From Geovibrio thiophilus (lineage in GTDB: Bacteria > Chrysiogenota > Deferribacteres > Deferribacterales > Geovibrionaceae), in the NCBI RefSeq assembly GCF_004087915.1, contig NZ_CP035108.1, positions 2,356,001 to 2,420,000 of the forward strand: 64,000 bases of DNA, in the 5' to 3' direction. Positions 15,285 to 22,717 of this stretch are shown here, piece after piece. A program made the position numbers and the translations under genes. The first letter of the stretch is position 1, and every line of letters begins with the position of its first letter. The notes under the pieces are model-generated. The model was not told where the DNA came from, made no database searches, and saw nothing but the letters and a program-made list of their open reading frames with translations.

Positions 15285-15704
15285 TCAGGCTTCTTTCCTG
15301 AACTCCGCCCATTTCTCAGCAAGAACTGACGGAACAGTCACAGGGCGACCGCTTTTCAGATCCACAAAGGCGCCGGACTGAACAGCGGTAAAGACAGTTT
15401 TGCCGCCGTCCTTGGTGATTTCCGCCTCAACTTCCCAGCGCACCTTTTCAAGCATCGTGATCCTGATTCCCGCCTTGAGGCTGTCACCGAAGAGAGACGG
15501 ACGCTTGTAATGCGCATGAGTCTTGTTAACCACGGGGGCTATGCCGTCCTCAGCCATGAGTTCAATCGGGTAGTGCTCCTTCAGCAGAGCGGTACGCAGG
15601 TCATCCATCCAGCGGATGTAGACTATGTTGCTCACCACGCCGCCGTAGTCTATATCATACCCCTGAATCACTATCTCTTTTTCCAGAAAAAAAGGGTTAT
15701 TCAT
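15285..15704 (-). CDS. Acyl-CoA thioesterase (4HBT/hot-dog fold)
   Basis: About 139 aa. The ATG at 15704 overlaps the last codons of the upstream exonuclease gene (ATGAATAA). The sequence has the 4-hydroxybenzoyl-CoA thioesterase signature Y-D-I-D-Y-G-G-V-V-S-N-I-V-Y, with the catalytic Asp in the first turn. The family hydrolyses acyl-CoA or acyl-ACP thioesters; the exact substrate is not visible. It is co-transcribed with the exonuclease, and neither the pairing nor the position after htpG (convergent) suggests a pathway. Confidence 0.88.
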   Translation of the reverse strand: MNNPFFLEKEIVIQGYDIDYGGVVSNIVYIRWMDDLRTALLKEHYPIELMAEDGIAPVVNKTHAHYKRPSLFGDSLKAGIRITMLEKVRWEVEAEITKDGGKTVFTAVQSGAFVDLKSGRPVTVPSVLAEKWAEFRKEA

Positions 15705-16341
15705 TTTCCATTTCCGGCGCTTCGGCAGGGTATTCCCTGTAATCCCGGGCATCATTCAGAAGCAGAGGATAAATAAGAAGGCATACCCACGCATCTGTTG
15801 CGGCATAATTTTTCTGTTTATCCGTGAGATCCCTGCGCGCCCAGTTAGTCTTCTGGGCGGATTTGACAATCTTGCGCCCGAGATAACGGGCAGCGAGAGC
15901 CCTTGCCCCGAACTGAATTATGCCTTTTTCAGCGGCTATATCCCCGAGATCCACAAAACCGTTTTCCTCAAAAGACGTGAGTTCTTTCAGCTTCTTTATA
16001 TCGTCCCTTATTCCGACGCCGATCTTTTTGACCGTGGGATCAGTAAAAAGACCAACGAGACCCTCCGGAAGGTTTCCGCCGTTAAGCTGAAACAGATAGG
16101 CCTTGTCAAGGGTTGATACCTGAACAAGGGAAACGGGATAGCTCACCCCTCTTCTGAATGAGGGTCTGCTTTCCGTGTCAAATCCGAGCTCATTATATCC
16201 GCTGAGTTCCCTGCATGCCTCTTCGGCGTGTCCGGGTTCCGTAACCGTTACAATTTCCCCGTCAAATCTTATGGCTTCCAGAGAAGCCACATACTCTTTA
16301 CTGAGTCTGTTTTGTGTAGATATTATAAGTGCTTCGTCCAT
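15697..16341 (-). CDS. 3'-5' exonuclease of the DEDDy (RNase D/WRN-exo) family
   Basis: 214 aa. Exo I motif F-D-T-E (L-G-F-D-T-E-S-R-P), exo II region around G-V-G-I-R-D-D, and exo III Y-A-A-T-D-A-W carrying the Tyr that defines DEDDy enzymes. There is no HRDC domain, so it is a stand-alone exonuclease domain like those in many deltaproteobacterial-type genomes. Expected activity is metal-dependent 3'-5' trimming of RNA or DNA. Translationally coupled to the downstream thioesterase. Confidence 0.9.
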   Translation of the reverse strand: MDEALIISTQNRLSKEYVASLEAIRFDGEIVTVTEPGHAEEACRELSGYNELGFDTESRPSFRRGVSYPVSLVQVSTLDKAYLFQLNGGNLPEGLVGLFTDPTVKKIGVGIRDDIKKLKELTSFEENGFVDLGDIAAEKGIIQFGARALAARYLGRKIVKSAQKTNWARRDLTDKQKNYAATDAWVCLLIYPLLLNDARDYREYPAEAPEMENE

Positions 16342-16881
16342 TCTTACTTTATATCACCAAATATTCATCGCGTAAACCTGTCGGTTAAGTTTACTTAACA
16401 ACTATTTTTTATCACTCTGAAACCCTCTGTGGAAAGGGCATACAAAAACTGTTTCTGTGCACAGACGTCAGTGAAAGCCCGTTATACCGTTTAACATTCT
16501 TAGGCTTGCCGTAATTCACAAAAACTGTAACTGAGAGACAAAGCAAACCCCATGAAAAAAATAGTGCCGAAACAGGGTGTGTATTCACGCCAACCCTTAC
16601 ATGAAGGAGTTAAGGGCGGCTTAATCTGTAATTAAAAGTACCCTTGGTTATGCCAATAAGGATTATAATACTTATATAAAAGCATATTTGTGAATCTAAT
16701 AATCATTTTCCGCATGTTTTTTTTTGGCTGTATCGATTTTTTTTATTGTCATTTCATAAATTTCGTTAATATTATTTGAAATATAAGGTTCTGTAGGGAT
16801 TGTTCTTTCATTATCTTTGTGTTAACATAAAAGAGTACACATACTTAACTGTGAATTTTCTTTTGACAGGAGACTTCCACG
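16342..16881. other. 540-bp AT-rich gap upstream of cas6
   Basis: No protein-coding frame of convincing quality and no direct repeats of CRISPR type were found. There is a possible stem CCCTTA...TAAGGG near 16594-16616 and another between TTTGTGAATC and surrounding AT-rich sequence. A promoter for cas6 is expected close to 16800-16860, ending in a ribosome-binding site (ACAGGAGA) before the ATG at 16882. An undescribed small RNA or leader is possible but unsupported. Confidence 0.4.
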
Positions 16882-17712
16882 ATGCTTTTGAAACTTACTC
16901 TTACCGCAACTGAAGTACCGGTCATTTTCAGAAACAGAATAGCTGAGATTATAAAATCAGCAGCAGAAACAGGCTACGAGTCCCTTGGGATGGGACTTAC
17001 CGATAAGAGTTTTAAATTTTTTACTTTTAATCTCGCGTTTTCCAGAGACAGGTTTAAAAAAGAACCAATCGTTTTTGACAACAGTTTTGAAGTGTTCGAC
17101 ACTGTTTTCCACATTCCCGAAAACAAGTTTATCACGCTGTACATAAGCAGCCCGTATGAAAAGTTTCTTCAGGCTGTACAGCACGGATTTGAAAAAAAGA
17201 AGGATATAGACTTCTCCCGCGGCGGGCAGATCCTTGTCGGCGGGAAAAAGCTCACATATATGCTCGAAAACTCAAAACTTCTCAACAAGCCTTTCACCAT
17301 AGAAGGCTCATGCGTCACTCTCCATACCCACTCGCCGGTTCTCCTTGAATCTCTTAATTCAAAAAAGCCGATAATCCCGCCTGTGGAGGACGGCTACTGC
17401 GAGCTTGAGGTCTCTGAAAAGGAATATTCCGACAGGCTGGCGGAGATTTCATCCATGCGTATTTTCGGCATGACAGGAAAATATCCGCAGGAGCCGATAG
17501 TTTTCAAATCGGTCAGGCTGCGCAAAACAGTTATCAAGCATACACTGGACAAGTTCAGGGAGAAAACCGGTAAGTCACTGATGATGCTCACAGGGATAAC
17601 CGGCACATTTGAGCTTGCCGGACATCCGGACGATCTCTCTCTTCTGGTGGAATCAGGCATAGGCATCAGAACCACACAGGGCTTCGGAATGGCAGGACCA
17701 TCAAAGCCGTAA
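16882..17712 (+). CDS. cas6: Orphan CRISPR endoribonuclease Cas6
   Basis: 276 aa with ACAGGAGA before the ATG. The C-terminus carries the Cas6 glycine-rich signature (E-S-G-I-G-I-R-T-T-Q-G-F-G-M) after a G-T-F-E-L-A-G strand, and the body fits two RAMP/ferredoxin-like domains. Cas6 cuts CRISPR precursor RNA inside the repeat. The catalytic His is hard to assign; His near the N-terminal domain is not obvious, and activity should not be assumed. No other cas gene or repeat-spacer array lies within 16 kb upstream or 46 kb downstream, so it is either a trans-acting Cas6 serving arrays elsewhere or a remnant. Converges closely with the GGDEF-EAL gene. Confidence 0.85.
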   Translation: MLLKLTLTATEVPVIFRNRIAEIIKSAAETGYESLGMGLTDKSFKFFTFNLAFSRDRFKKEPIVFDNSFEVFDTVFHIPENKFITLYISSPYEKFLQAVQHGFEKKKDIDFSRGGQILVGGKKLTYMLENSKLLNKPFTIEGSCVTLHTHSPVLLESLNSKKPIIPPVEDGYCELEVSEKEYSDRLAEISSMRIFGMTGKYPQEPIVFKSVRLRKTVIKHTLDKFREKTGKSLMMLTGITGTFELAGHPDDLSLLVESGIGIRTTQGFGMAGPSKP

Positions 17713-17716
17713 AAGC

Positions 17717-20700
17717 CTACTTAGCTGATTTTATTTCCAGAGCGAAGCTGTCCTTCCATCCTGCAAGCAGCTTTTCAAACTCTGCGGCGGGCACGGGTTT
17801 GCTGAAATAGTACCCCTGCGCGAGATCGCATTCAAGCTCACGCAGAAGCCGGAGATGCGTTTCATTTTCCACGCCTTCCGCCACCACTTCAATACCTAAG
17901 TTCCTTGAAAGCTGTATGACCGAGCGCACTATTGAAAGCGAGTCCTCGCTGGTGTCGATGCCTTGGGTGAAAGATTTGTCTATCTTGATGGTATCTATAG
18001 GTATCCTTGTGAGATAGCCAATGGAGCTGAATCCTGTACCGAAGTCATCAATAGCGAAGGTTATCCCCAGTGAGCTGAGCTTGTCGAGAATATCCCGCGT
18101 ATTTTCAGTGTCCACCATGATCGTGCTTTCGGTTATTTCAAGCTCTAGGTGCTTAGGCTCCATACCTGTTTCTGAAAGCACATTTTTAACAGACATATAC
18201 AGGTCTTTCTGAATGAACTGCTTCAAGGAAAGATTCACCGCTACCTTAAGATCATATCCCATAGCCCGCCACCTCATAAGGTCTTCGCAGGATTTTTTCA
18301 GAACCCACTGACCTATGGAGACAATCAAGCCTGTTTCCTCAGTGATCGGGATGAACATATCAGGGAAAACCCTTCCCAGATCAGGGTTATTCCAGCGGAT
18401 CAGGGCTTCCATCCCCACAAGCTCAAGGGTCTGAAGATTTATTTTGGGCTGGTAGTAGACCTCAAACTCTCCGTTATCAAGAGCCCGGTTCAGCTTTGTT
18501 TCTATCAGAAGCCTGTCTTTGGCTGTGTCGTTAAAGTCGGTGGTATAGATCTGGAGCATGCCGCGCCCCTTTGATTTGGCACGGTACATAGCGGCGTCAG
18601 CGTTCTTTGCGACAGTAAAGACATCGTCTCCGTCGTCCGGATAAAAACTGAGACCCGCGCTGCATTTCAGAAAGAGCTCGTAGTCATCCACCTGAAAAGG
18701 TTTTTCAAGCTGCTTTATGACGTTGTAAGCGACTGTAACGGCTCTGTTCTTATCTGACAGGTCTTCAATTATCACAGTGTACTCGTCTCCTCCGAGGCGG
18801 CTCACCGTAATGCTTTCGCCTACTGTACCCACTATACGGTCAGCTATTTTCTGAAGCAGTATATCGCCCACATTGTGACCGAGGGTATCGTTCACGTTTT
18901 TGAACCTGTCTATGTCTATGGAGATAAGCCCAACGTAGTTATGATTTTTCTTCGCCCTTGATATAGCCATGCTCAGCCTGTCCTGAAAAAGGTAGCGGTT
19001 GGGCAGATTCGTCAGAGGATCATAGTGTGACTGATATTTTATCTGCTCTTCGTATTTCTTCCGCTCGGTAATATCGTGCATAACCCCTATGAAGTGCGAT
19101 ATGTTCCCGCCGGAATCACGAATGCTTGAAATATTCACAGTAGCCGGATAAAGCTCGCCGTTTTTGCGCCTGTTCCAGATTTCTCCCTGCCATGTGCCGG
19201 TCTCCTTAAGCGAGTTCCACAGACCCTTGTAAAAATGGTTGGCGTGCCTGCCGGAGCGGAGAATACTGGTTTTATTTCCGATAGCCTCCTCCTCGGTAAA
19301 ACCGGTTATACGGAGAAAAGCCTTGTTGACGCTGAGGATTACTCCTCTTGTGTTGGTTATGTAAATCGCCTCTATTGTGTTCTCAAACACCTTGGAGGCA
19401 AGCAGAAGCTTCTCCTCCGATGATTTTCTGTCGGTTATATCTATGCCCTGAAGAACCACGCCGAAGCTTTTCTCAGCTGTTCCCGCAATGGACATGTTCC
19501 AGAGAATATACTTCATCTCGCCGCTTTTAACGTTTTTCACCATGGATTCAAAGTTTGACAATGTGTCGGAACTTCCCGCCGCTTTCAGAAGGAGTTCTTT
19601 CAGCCTGTCCCCGGTAAGGCAGGCGAAGATTATTTCCAGATTCTCCCCCAGAGCCTGAGCTTCATCAATACCGGAAAGCTCTTCCATGGACTTGTTGAAG
19701 ATCACGATTCTGTTCTCTGTATCCCAAGCGATGAGAGGAACCTTGGCAAAGCCGAGAAAGTTGCTCAGGTACGCCTGAGTTTCCCTAAGCTCCCTGTTCA
19801 TGGAGGAAACCGCGTCGCCCAGCCTGTTGAACTCTTCAACGGGAGTGGGCACAAACTCGTCCGTTCCGCCGGAAGCGCTGATCCGGTGAGTATAGTCGAT
19901 GAGATAATGAAGAGAACGTGCCGTCAGTCTGCGGAAGCCGTAAACAGAGGCAGCTGTCATTATGATTATCAGCAGCACAGCAGCAGCAGCCCTGCCTGTT
20001 ATCTGTTTCTTCATGAGAGCCAGAGACTGATTGTCCGTGAGCTGATAAATCATCAGCGGCGTTTCGGCTCCTTTGATCTCAAGAGGCAGACAGTATGCGG
20101 AGTAACCGTCTTTTATATTGAAAATTCTGCCGGAAGACGCACAAGCTTCGGGAGCGAAGCTGCTCATCTCAAACCCGTCTGAGGAGGAAATCATTTTTCC
20201 GCCGGATACAAAGGCAATACCGGAACCGGTTTCCGCCGCTGCTTCTCTTATAATATCCGGCGCGCCGTTTATTATTCTGCCTATATAGGCTCTGCCGAGG
20301 ACCTCACCGGTCTGCGGGTGGTTGACAGGCGTATAACCCAGTATAAGGTTCAGCGGCACAGCCGAGCCCCCGTCTTTTATCGAATAAACGGAACCGGACG
20401 CCGTAACGGACTGACCGCTGTCTTTGAGAAAATTTATGATTGGCGATGTATCAAAAAACAGGGAACCCACATCCGTGACCCTTGTGCCGTCAAATGAGAT
20501 AAAAACCATCACATCAAGGTTTTCACCGGCACTCAGATCATAAATGGATGCAAAACCCGTTTTGAAATCTTCGGATGCTGTATCGGCGTTTTTTTCAAGA
20601 AGCTGTCTGATATTAACCCTGAGATCCCGGGTAACCCACCCGAGATGCTCCAGCTCCTTCTCAAAAACCATAGCGGCAGTGTCATGGTTTCTTTTAAGAA

Positions 20701-20839
20701 GCCTTTTCTGCTCACGTTTTATTATATCCTCAGCGTCCAGACTGCTCCACAGGAGAATAACAACGGAAAGCACCACCGAGAAGCAGGTCAGAAGCAGCGC
20801 CAGAAAGGAGGATATTTTAACGGACTTTACCCTATTCAT
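17717..20839 (-). CDS. LuxQ-type periplasmic sensor fused to PAS-PAS-GGDEF-EAL (c-di-GMP turnover)
   Basis: About 1040 aa; start ATG 20839 (a GTG two codons earlier is possible). A membrane helix (about 10-33) and a periplasmic region (about 35-285) resemble Vibrio LuxQ: V-F-I-S-F-D-G-T, F-F-D-T-S-P-I-I, T-G-E-V-L-G, then Q-L-T-D-N-Q-S just before the second helix (about 287-305). A HAMP-like linker (Y-T-H-R-I, V-E-E-F-N-R-L-G) leads to two PAS domains (about 360-470 and 480-600), a GGDEF domain (G-G-D-E-Y near 684) and an EAL domain (M-E-A-L-I-R-W near 810; D-D-F-G-T-G-F-S; A-E-G-V-E-N). Both enzymatic motifs look intact. Its start overlaps the end of the LuxP-like gene, so the pair are coupled as luxP-luxQ are in vibrios. 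Inferred role: AI-2-dependent control of c-di-GMP. Confidence 0.9.
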   Translation of the reverse strand: MNRVKSVKISSFLALLLTCFSVVLSVVILLWSSLDAEDIIKREQKRLLKRNHDTAAMVFEKELEHLGWVTRDLRVNIRQLLEKNADTASEDFKTGFASIYDLSAGENLDVMVFISFDGTRVTDVGSLFFDTSPIINFLKDSGQSVTASGSVYSIKDGGSAVPLNLILGYTPVNHPQTGEVLGRAYIGRIINGAPDIIREAAAETGSGIAFVSGGKMISSSDGFEMSSFAPEACASSGRIFNIKDGYSAYCLPLEIKGAETPLMIYQLTDNQSLALMKKQITGRAAAAVLLIIIMTAASVYGFRRLTARSLHYLIDYTHRISASGGTDEFVPTPVEEFNRLGDAVSSMNRELRETQAYLSNFLGFAKVPLIAWDTENRIVIFNKSMEELSGIDEAQALGENLEIIFACLTGDRLKELLLKAAGSSDTLSNFESMVKNVKSGEMKYILWNMSIAGTAEKSFGVVLQGIDITDRKSSEEKLLLASKVFENTIEAIYITNTRGVILSVNKAFLRITGFTEEEAIGNKTSILRSGRHANHFYKGLWNSLKETGTWQGEIWNRRKNGELYPATVNISSIRDSGGNISHFIGVMHDITERKKYEEQIKYQSHYDPLTNLPNRYLFQDRLSMAISRAKKNHNYVGLISIDIDRFKNVNDTLGHNVGDILLQKIADRIVGTVGESITVSRLGGDEYTVIIEDLSDKNRAVTVAYNVIKQLEKPFQVDDYELFLKCSAGLSFYPDDGDDVFTVAKNADAAMYRAKSKGRGMLQIYTTDFNDTAKDRLLIETKLNRALDNGEFEVYYQPKINLQTLELVGMEALIRWNNPDLGRVFPDMFIPITEETGLIVSIGQWVLKKSCEDLMRWRAMGYDLKVAVNLSLKQFIQKDLYMSVKNVLSETGMEPKHLELEITESTIMVDTENTRDILDKLSSLGITFAIDDFGTGFSSIGYLTRIPIDTIKIDKSFTQGIDTSEDSLSIVRSVIQLSRNLGIEVVAEGVENETHLRLLRELECDLAQGYYFSKPVPAAEFEKLLAGWKDSFALEIKSAK

Positions 20840-21929
20840 TTTCACCCGAATACCTGAACGCTTTCATTTTTAGTTCTTTTATCCTGTGTTCACTGTCCTG
20901 CGAAGTCACAAGGCTGAAACCGCCGGAAAACACTGCGGGCACATCCTTCTCCCTGCCTGCGATAACCAGCTTTACCGCCTCAGCCGCAGCTACGCTGCTG
21001 TCATCATTCATCCGCATAACCGTCAGGTCAAGCTCTTTTTCTGAGATGTGACTGAGTTCTGTGTTCCCGCCGCCCCATCCGTTGAGAATAATTTTCCCTG
21101 CGTGAAGCTCCCTCAGCGCATCTGCGGCTCCGAGAGCTACATCCGTGGAGCAGGCGAAAATAAAGCTGACCTCAGGATACCTTCTGATTATCTCTTTTGC
21201 TGCGCTGCGTGATTTTTCTTTATCAAAATCGGTGATATACTCAGCTTTTTTAACATATTGTCCATGAATGGCAAGCCTTTCCGTGAAGCCTTTGGTTCTC
21301 AGCCAGCCCACCTCACCGCCGGAGCAGTTGAGGACAGCATATGACGAATTGTTCTCAGTCACGGAAGCGATGGCATCCGCCAGAATCTCTGAACCGGTTA
21401 TATGGTCAAACCCAGTGTAAAGCAGAGGTCGGCGGACTTCCCACTCCTTAAGAGGGGTTGTCAGGTTCTGCACTATTATTTTATGCTTCCCCTCAAAAAG
21501 CAGCCTGCCCACAGCTTTACGCATCTGCGCGGAGTCAGCGGAAACTATTATAAAATCAGACTTTTCCGCCGCCTCAGCAAGCTGAGAGACTTGAAGCCGG
21601 GTATCTCCGGAAGGTCTGCTGTAATAAGTCTGAAGCGTGTAGCTCACATTAAGATCCGCAAGCCTCTTTTCCAGAGCCTTAACGCTGCGCCGCCAGTAGT
21701 CCGAAGACTGAAGCGCCGGATAAACTACGGCTATCTTCACAGGTTTTGAGTTCACAGTCTTGAGGGGTACAGGCGGATTACGCACAATGTCTGCAAAATG
21801 ATCAAACTTCCACGCCTGTTCAGGGTGTTTCAGCATATATTCTGAAACAGTGTAAAACGTCTGTTCAATGCCGCGGGCAGGTAAAGCGAAAAGAAGAAGG
21901 AAAAGAAAAAGAGCATATGCTCCCTTCAT
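20832..21929 (-). CDS. LuxP-like periplasmic autoinducer-2-binding protein
   Basis: 365 aa with a signal peptide (L-F-L-F-L-L-L-F-A-L-P-A-R-G). Its sequence follows Vibrio LuxP closely, for example V-V-Y-P-A-L-Q-S-S-D-Y-W, V-Q-N-L-T-T-P-L-K-E-W, F-A-C-S-T-D-V-A-L-G-A, N-G-W-G-G-G and V-M-R-M-N-D-D, and the end R-A/K-A-F-R-Y-S. From memory of the V. harveyi LuxP-AI-2 structure, the ligand contacts are Gln77, Ser79, Trp82, Asn159, Arg215, Ser265, Thr266, Trp289 and Arg310. The equivalents here are Gln74, Ser76, Trp79, Asn155, Arg211, Ser261, Thr262, Trp285 and Arg306, all identical. Both Arg residues that stabilise the borate diester are kept. No luxS lies in the window. Confidence 0.92.
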   Translation of the reverse strand: MKGAYALFLFLLLFALPARGIEQTFYTVSEYMLKHPEQAWKFDHFADIVRNPPVPLKTVNSKPVKIAVVYPALQSSDYWRRSVKALEKRLADLNVSYTLQTYYSRPSGDTRLQVSQLAEAAEKSDFIIVSADSAQMRKAVGRLLFEGKHKIIVQNLTTPLKEWEVRRPLLYTGFDHITGSEILADAIASVTENNSSYAVLNCSGGEVGWLRTKGFTERLAIHGQYVKKAEYITDFDKEKSRSAAKEIIRRYPEVSFIFACSTDVALGAADALRELHAGKIILNGWGGGNTELSHISEKELDLTVMRMNDDSSVAAAEAVKLVIAGREKDVPAVFSGGFSLVTSQDSEHRIKELKMKAFRYSGENE

Positions 21930-21930
21930 G

Positions 21931-22290
21931 CTACACCAGCTCCTGAATTTTGCTGATGAGTTCGTTAACCATCAAGGGTTTGGTGAAATAACCCTCCACC
22001 CCGAGCTCCTCAGCTCTTTTCCGGTCAAACCTGTCGCTGGACGCGGTGAGTATTATCACGTGAACATCGGGAAGGGTTTTTCGGATTTCAGCTATCATAT
22101 CAAGCCCTTCCATGTGAGGCATGCGCAGATCGGTAAGGATAACGTCCGGTTTTTCCGCAACCGCCGTTTCGAGCCCCTTTCTTCCGTCAGAGGCGCTGAA
22201 CACTCTGCTGAAAGTGCGTTTCATCCTGAGTTCCAGAGCTCCGGCAACAGCCGGATCATCTTCGACTATCAGTACGGATATATCCTTCAT
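21931..22290 (-). CDS. Single-domain response regulator ahead of the LuxP-like gene
   Basis: 119 aa receiver: E-D-D-P near residue 10, phospho-acceptor Asp in L-T-D-L-R-M-P, L-T-A-S and F-T-K-P. No output domain. Its stop is one base before the LuxP-like ATG, so it is the first gene of a three-gene operon. There is no kinase in the operon, which raises the question of what phosphorylates it. It could be the target or modulator of the downstream c-di-GMP enzyme. Confidence 0.88.
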   Translation of the reverse strand: MKDISVLIVEDDPAVAGALELRMKRTFSRVFSASDGRKGLETAVAEKPDVILTDLRMPHMEGLDMIAEIRKTLPDVHVIILTASSDRFDRKRAEELGVEGYFTKPLMVNELISKIQELV

Positions 22291-22423
22291 GCGATCCTTC
22301 CGGGTTTGTAAACGGCAAAATTTCCGTCCGTGTTTTAAATCGGTTTATTTAGTAATATTATACTACCTCAGAGGTATGTCGGCAACACATTAAAGGCAGC
22401 GGCTTTTACGGAGGGAGCGCGGC

Positions 22424-22717
22424 TCAGAGCTCGCGGACTTGGAATATCCTGCTGAGTTCGAGCTCTTCCAGAAGGGAGACAAGCTTTTTATCTCCGGCGG
22501 ATACTCTGAGATCGATTTTATCAACATTGATCAGCTTAAGCATAAAACCGATTATGGATGATGTAATGGAGACGGAATCCGTGAAGCATACCTCAATACT
22601 GCGGCAGCCGGAATCAGTGAGATCCTGAAGGGATTTTTTGACCGCGAGGTAGTCGTCTATGCTTTTGATATTCCCTTTTATATTAACACTGTTTTCTTCA
22701 ACAGATACTTCCACCAT
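22424..22717 (-). CDS. STAS-domain (anti-sigma-antagonist-like) protein
   Basis: 97 aa with the beta-alpha pattern of SpoIIAA-type STAS domains: an N-terminal strand pair (V-E-V-S-V, V-N-I-K-G-N-I), then S-I-E-V-C-F and a Ser-rich loop D-S-V-S-I-T-S-S at the position of the phosphorylated Ser. No kinase or phosphatase partner gene is adjacent. It lies 130 bases upstream of the response regulator in the same direction and may be part of the same signalling locus. Confidence 0.6.
   Translation of the reverse strand: MVEVSVEENSVNIKGNIKSIDDYLAVKKSLQDLTDSGCRSIEVCFTDSVSITSSIIGFMLKLINVDKIDLRVSAGDKKLVSLLEELELSRIFQVREL

Follow-up and report, generated by a model that had tools for sequence, protein, structure and literature searches.

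The window that we analysed is a stretch of 64,000 nucleotides from the Geovibrio thiophilus genome, in which three contiguous genes on the minus strand follow one another in the order receiver, luxP-like gene and sensor. A single base separates the receiver stop codon from the luxP-like start, and the luxP-like gene overlaps the sensor gene, which is the arrangement expected of one transcript. The same luxP/sensor overlap was seen in two other genomes of the genus and in a genome of a sister genus (G020). The features of the locus are as follows.

22357-22385, minus strand: candidate sigma-70-like promoter TTGCCG-17-TATAAT upstream of the receiver gene (10/12 in a consensus scan, weak when taken alone)
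21931-22290, minus strand: single-domain response regulator of 119 aa that opens the unit (PF00072, E 6e-27)
20832-21929, minus strand: predicted LuxP-like periplasmic AI-2-binding protein of 365 aa with a signal peptide-like N-terminus (phmmer, fold, contacts)
17717-20845, minus strand: membrane sensor of 1042 aa, LuxQ-type periplasmic domain followed by PAS-PAS-GGDEF-EAL (Pfam); start codon GTG, with an ATG two codons further in
19976-20740, minus strand: sensor periplasmic domain, residues 36-290 (PF09308, clade profile, fold, hydropathy)
19406-19768, minus strand: first cytoplasmic PAS domain, about residues 360-480, limits approximate (Pfam PAS, two stretches)
19070-19390, minus strand: second cytoplasmic PAS domain, residues 486-592 (PF00989)
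18563-19030, minus strand: GGDEF domain with the motif GGDEY and without an RxxD inhibition site (PF00990, E 3e-43)
17795-18496, minus strand: EAL domain with complete phosphodiesterase motifs (PF00563, E 1e-76; motif table)

Directly upstream of the receiver gene lies an ORF of 97 aa (22424-22717, minus strand) that is kept in the genus at 76-81% identity; it appeared STAS-like by eye and had no Pfam match. On the other side, a gene for a Cas6-type CRISPR endoribonuclease (PF01881; 16882-17712, plus strand) runs towards the sensor gene and ends five bases short of it, and no CRISPR repeat array was found beside it within 15700-17800.

The LuxP-like protein shares 40-42% identity with Vibrio harveyi LuxP. 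A phmmer search of the PDB returned Vibrio LuxP with an E-value of 1e-83 (285 bits), and the next family, the ribose-binding (RbsB-type) proteins, reached only 43 bits. The AlphaFold model (pLDDT 92) superimposed on the AI-2 complex 1jx6 with a Z-score of 45.1 and 2.1 Å over 337 residues, compared with a Z-score of 31.5 for the best non-LuxP structure. The contact positions that we compared comprise N159, R215 and R310 of V. harveyi LuxP and six others, which we take to be AI-2 contacts in the 1JX6 structure. AI-2 contacts at the three named residues are documented (PMC6452917; PMC3794749). The original prediction that all nine contacts, including both arginines, are kept was confirmed by the alignment, in which Q74, S76, W79, N155, R211, S261, T262, W285 and R306 are identical to their V. 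harveyi counterparts (9/9; P = 2e-4 by chance at 40% overall identity). The expected pocket held up in the overall fold and in the identity of its residues, which is as fine as this comparison goes. Across 42 LuxP homologues, eight of the nine contact positions were invariant, against 41 of all 365 columns, and the RbsB-like protein of the same genome keeps one of the nine. These comparisons of sequence and model support a LuxP orthologue whose AI-2 pocket is intact and for which ligand binding is predicted, and the alignment suggests one ligand chemistry throughout the clade.

The sensor carries two membrane segments by hydropathy (about residues 10-34 and 281-303), which enclose the periplasmic domain. 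A LuxQ-like domain had been proposed here, with the lack of a PF09308 match named beforehand as grounds for giving the proposal up; residues 40-276 matched PF09308 above the cut-off, narrowly (29.6 versus 25.7 bits). A phmmer search of the PDB with the single sequence found LuxQ at an E-value of only 0.12, but a profile built from six Deferribacterota domains only had V. cholerae LuxQ (3c30) as its best match, with an E-value of 3e-7. In a search with the predicted fold (pLDDT 89), the top five entries were all LuxQ (Z 16.6-17.4, rmsd 2.7-3.3 Å, the best over 214 residues), with dCACHE sensors ranking behind at Z 15 and below and an rmsd of about 5 Å. With LuxQ ranked at the top by this clade profile as well as by the predicted fold, the assignment is firm, and a true LuxQ-type periplasmic domain is supported by sequence and model. 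The NCBIfam LuxQ model NF041947 matched residues 10-481 with 102 bits, versus an equivalog cut-off of 1200, and this match ends where the kinase would start. A PDB match to LuxQ obtained with a profile that contained Vibrio LuxQ was circular and was discounted. Two cysteines of the domain, C200 and C217, are shared by all six Deferribacterota domains, whereas the aligned Vibrio LuxQ lacks them; a disulphide between the two is possible.

Behind the periplasmic domain, Pfam identified two PAS stretches, GGDEF and EAL, and no HisKA, HATPase or receiver domain in the sensor, as the original prediction had held. The EAL motifs read EALIRW, N, ELEITES, DDFGTG, IKID (the lysine read from the sequence), EGVE and Q, and the catalytic motifs are present in nearly all relatives, one sequence from the same genus having ESLIRW. 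Because GGDEY departs from GGDEF, and because some relatives have SGDEF at this site, cyclase activity is uncertain. Within the genus, identity is 97% for GGDEF and 93-94% for EAL; the periplasmic domain reaches 67-71% and LuxP 73-76%. The GGDEF and EAL domains showed a dN of 0.02-0.05 with dS at or near saturation, and this high identity at saturated synonymous sites indicates that both are under strong purifying selection and that GGDEY is no sign of decay. The complete EAL motifs suggest that phosphodiesterase is most likely the main activity. The genome encodes eight PilZ domains.

The receiver gene adjoins luxP in the two other genomes of the genus and in the sister-genus genome G020, where the gene order is PAS-kinase, receiver, luxP and sensor. 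The PAS-kinase gene directly upstream in G020 indicates that the receiver has a natural kinase. In the G. thiophilus genome, which contains dozens of histidine kinase-like matches, an orthologue of this PAS-kinase was not found; the best match, at 39%, reflected general kinase similarity only. The original description of a kinase-less response regulator heading the operon thus held for the single-domain architecture and the first position, and the upstream kinase gene of G020 qualifies its kinase-less part.

We searched the genome, a single contig of 2,997,552 bases, for a source of the signal. luxS (PF02664) was absent from it, with positive controls, and the same search found luxS in none of the 48 genomes of the class, again with positive controls. 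Because SahH is encoded in the genome, the methyl cycle needs no LuxS. The missing luxS makes listening to other species likelier than quorum sensing with the organism's own AI-2, an idea that the negative search speaks against. By type of partner, luxS was found in 8/8 Vibrionaceae, in 4/11 genomes with GGDEF-EAL partners and in 3/10 non-Vibrio genomes with kinases, counts that refer to genomes reached via LuxP loci and include several incomplete assemblies, so that absences are soft. Outside Vibrio, owners of LuxP are thus often luxS-negative whatever the output, and a listener role for such organisms was proposed in 2008 (PMC2561040). A search of the G. thiophilus genome for a second receptor of the LsrB type gave nothing over the cut-off, but the 14 control genomes gave nothing over it either, so the result carries no weight.

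The reading that we consider probable is that of a LuxP-type receptor whose output has been swapped to a membrane GGDEF-EAL enzyme, that is, a listener-type counterpart of LuxPQ that resembles NspS-MbaA, with AI-2 binding as a prediction. In Vibrio, LuxP contacts LuxQ and the ligand drives a rearrangement. In G. thiophilus, AI-2 in its borate form, released by luxS-positive neighbours, would be bound by LuxP in the periplasm, with LuxP seated on the periplasmic domain of the sensor as in LuxPQ. Closure of LuxP on the ligand would rearrange the dimer by way of the membrane helices and the PAS domains, which may shift the balance between the EAL phosphodiesterase and the GGDEF domain, the latter acting as a cyclase or as a GTP-regulated module. 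The altered c-di-GMP level would then reach PilZ-type effectors, with no direction of change predicted. The receiver probably joins the same response via a kinase that is encoded elsewhere in the genome or has been lost.

The locus shares with the LuxPQ systems of V. harveyi and V. cholerae the LuxP pocket, the LuxQ-type periplasmic domain, the gene order and the PAS domain after the membrane. In contrast, LuxQ has a histidine kinase and a receiver where the G. thiophilus sensor has GGDEF-EAL, so that the sensor could give LuxU/LuxO no phosphate, and G. thiophilus lacks luxS. V. cholerae NspS is a PotD-type protein, not a LuxP. The NspS-MbaA pair had been named as the closest parallel, and this comparison stands as one of how the systems work: in both, the gene for a periplasmic binding protein adjoins and overlaps that for a membrane GGDEF-EAL enzyme, whereas the ligands of NspS-MbaA are norspermidine and spermidine. 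Matches of the LuxP-like protein were of the LuxP/RbsB type, with no polyamine-binding (PotD-type) proteins among them. In NspS-MbaA, a binding protein steers an enzyme of the GGDEF-EAL type: which way c-di-GMP is turned over depends on ligand occupancy (PMC8967002).

Because LuxP has also been crystallised with other borated furanoses (4yr7, 4yp9), a related borate sugar is a possible ligand, and the pair could be a nutrient sensor acting on c-di-GMP in response to a borated or free furanose, ribose-like or formose-derived. The ribose-binding fold of LuxP and a genome devoid of luxS agree with this, but we regard it as unlikely: the near-complete invariance of the AI-2 contacts among the 42 homologues stands against the single contact kept by the RbsB-like protein, and luxS-negative owners of LuxP are common outside Vibrio regardless of output. 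Moreover, in a published MM32 assay three LuxPs bound AI-2, one of them a Deferribacterota protein that the accessible text does not name (PMC12268683).

LapD and FimX are GGDEF-EAL receptors that work without catalysis, and the GGDEF-EAL part of the sensor, with its GGDEY and no inhibition site, could likewise bind c-di-GMP or GTP and pass the signal on by contact. This is rather improbable given that the EAL catalytic motifs are complete here and in nearly all relatives and that the sequence is closest to the catalytic MorA- and MucR-like proteins. A decaying system, in which the pair drifts in a lineage that never had luxS, would fit the patchy distribution of LuxP (8/48 genomes), the transposase gene that parts luxP from its partner in a Denitrovibrio-like genome and the split partner of another; in the genus of the window, however, none of the three genes is broken and purifying selection acts on each of them, which leaves vestigial status very improbable.

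Under the favoured reading of a LuxP receptor with a GGDEF-EAL output, G. thiophilus probably hears the AI-2 of its neighbours and changes its own c-di-GMP directly. Most papers describe LuxP as belonging to Vibrio and feeding a kinase relay; in these anaerobes of another phylum, the receptor has no synthase to go with it and would stand one step from c-di-GMP. The pair would offer a simple two-gene test of AI-2 as a true between-species cue. Control of c-di-GMP by AI-2 in one step is known from dCACHE receptors (CahR, for example the diguanylate cyclase rpHK1S-Z16; PMC7584622) and from YeaJ (GAPES1), as told in PMC12268683. Unlike the LuxP-like system, these receptors bind AI-2 with the membrane protein's own periplasmic domain and involve neither LuxP nor PF09308. 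The V. furnissii kinase AsrK is another case of AI-2 control of c-di-GMP enzymes. According to the accessible part of PMC12268683, LuxP proteins hold a sensor domain only and function in import, and that part does not describe the partner of the AI-2-binding Deferribacterota LuxP; a GGDEF-EAL partner would explain its likely connection. In the open literature, which was the scope of our search, we found no description of LuxP with a GGDEF-EAL partner, and as far as that literature shows this would be the first non-kinase LuxP output. The earlier view that no characterised example exists holds in this sense, but the design itself recurs in seven Deferribacterota species with Geovibrionaceae-like genomes, in Oceanospirillaceae and in Stappia.

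In our survey of the class, 48 genomes were searched for LuxP, PF09308 and luxS, and LuxP and PF09308 occurred in an identical set of eight, with adjacent genes in the carriers except where a transposase gene intervenes. Seven of the eight, all from the family of the window (Geovibrionaceae-like), have a GGDEF-EAL partner, and the eighth, from another family, has a hybrid kinase. At the locus of this eighth genome (L100, 7666-11099), LuxP goes with a kinase-receiver partner, so that both outputs occur within one order. Outside the class, our genome collection contained GGDEF-EAL partners in Marinobacterium, Neptuniibacter and Pontibacterium (Oceanospirillaceae) and in Stappia, and kinase partners in Vibrionaceae, Desulfobacterota, Arcobacter and Kiloniella. 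The Neptuniibacter and Marinobacterium loci likewise encode LuxP followed by PF09308-PAS-GGDEF-EAL; they differ in that no receiver gene lies in front, the GGDEF motif is canonical, often with an inhibition site, and some of the genomes have luxS. A luxP beside a PAS-domain regulator in a luxS-negative Neptuniibacter was noted in 2008 (PMC2561040).

Three changes are needed to place the GGDEF-EAL label on the LuxP tree. Forcing all GGDEF-EAL-linked LuxPs into one clade gave p = 0.053 (p = 0.050 without Stappia), which does not clearly reject a single clade, and the GGDEF-EAL domain tree grouped each lineage, with too few outside sequences to resolve independent fusions. These results showed that outputs have been exchanged on the LuxP/PF09308 front end, in a number that the trees do not fix. 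With somewhat more doubt than confidence, we propose that LuxP is a listening module whose output was swapped repeatedly, so that AI-2 was connected to c-di-GMP in a luxS-free family of Deferribacterota and separately in Oceanospirillaceae and Stappia, either directly or, in Motiliproteus, via a receiver-GGDEF-EAL protein. The Motiliproteus locus (L047, 8001-13215) encodes LuxP, a LuxQ-type kinase, a receiver and a receiver-GGDEF-EAL protein, which by its gene content is a route from AI-2 to c-di-GMP via a two-component relay.

Two loci depart from the intact arrangement. Between luxP and its GGDEF-EAL partner, one Denitrovibrio-like genome carries a DDE transposase gene (L097, 6058-7458, plus strand), which possibly breaks the operon. 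In Denitrovibrio BM704, which was found through LuxP and belongs to Geovibrionaceae, the reading frame of the partner is split in two (L024, 9131-12142; L098, 8483-11494), reflecting either an assembly error or a pseudogene.
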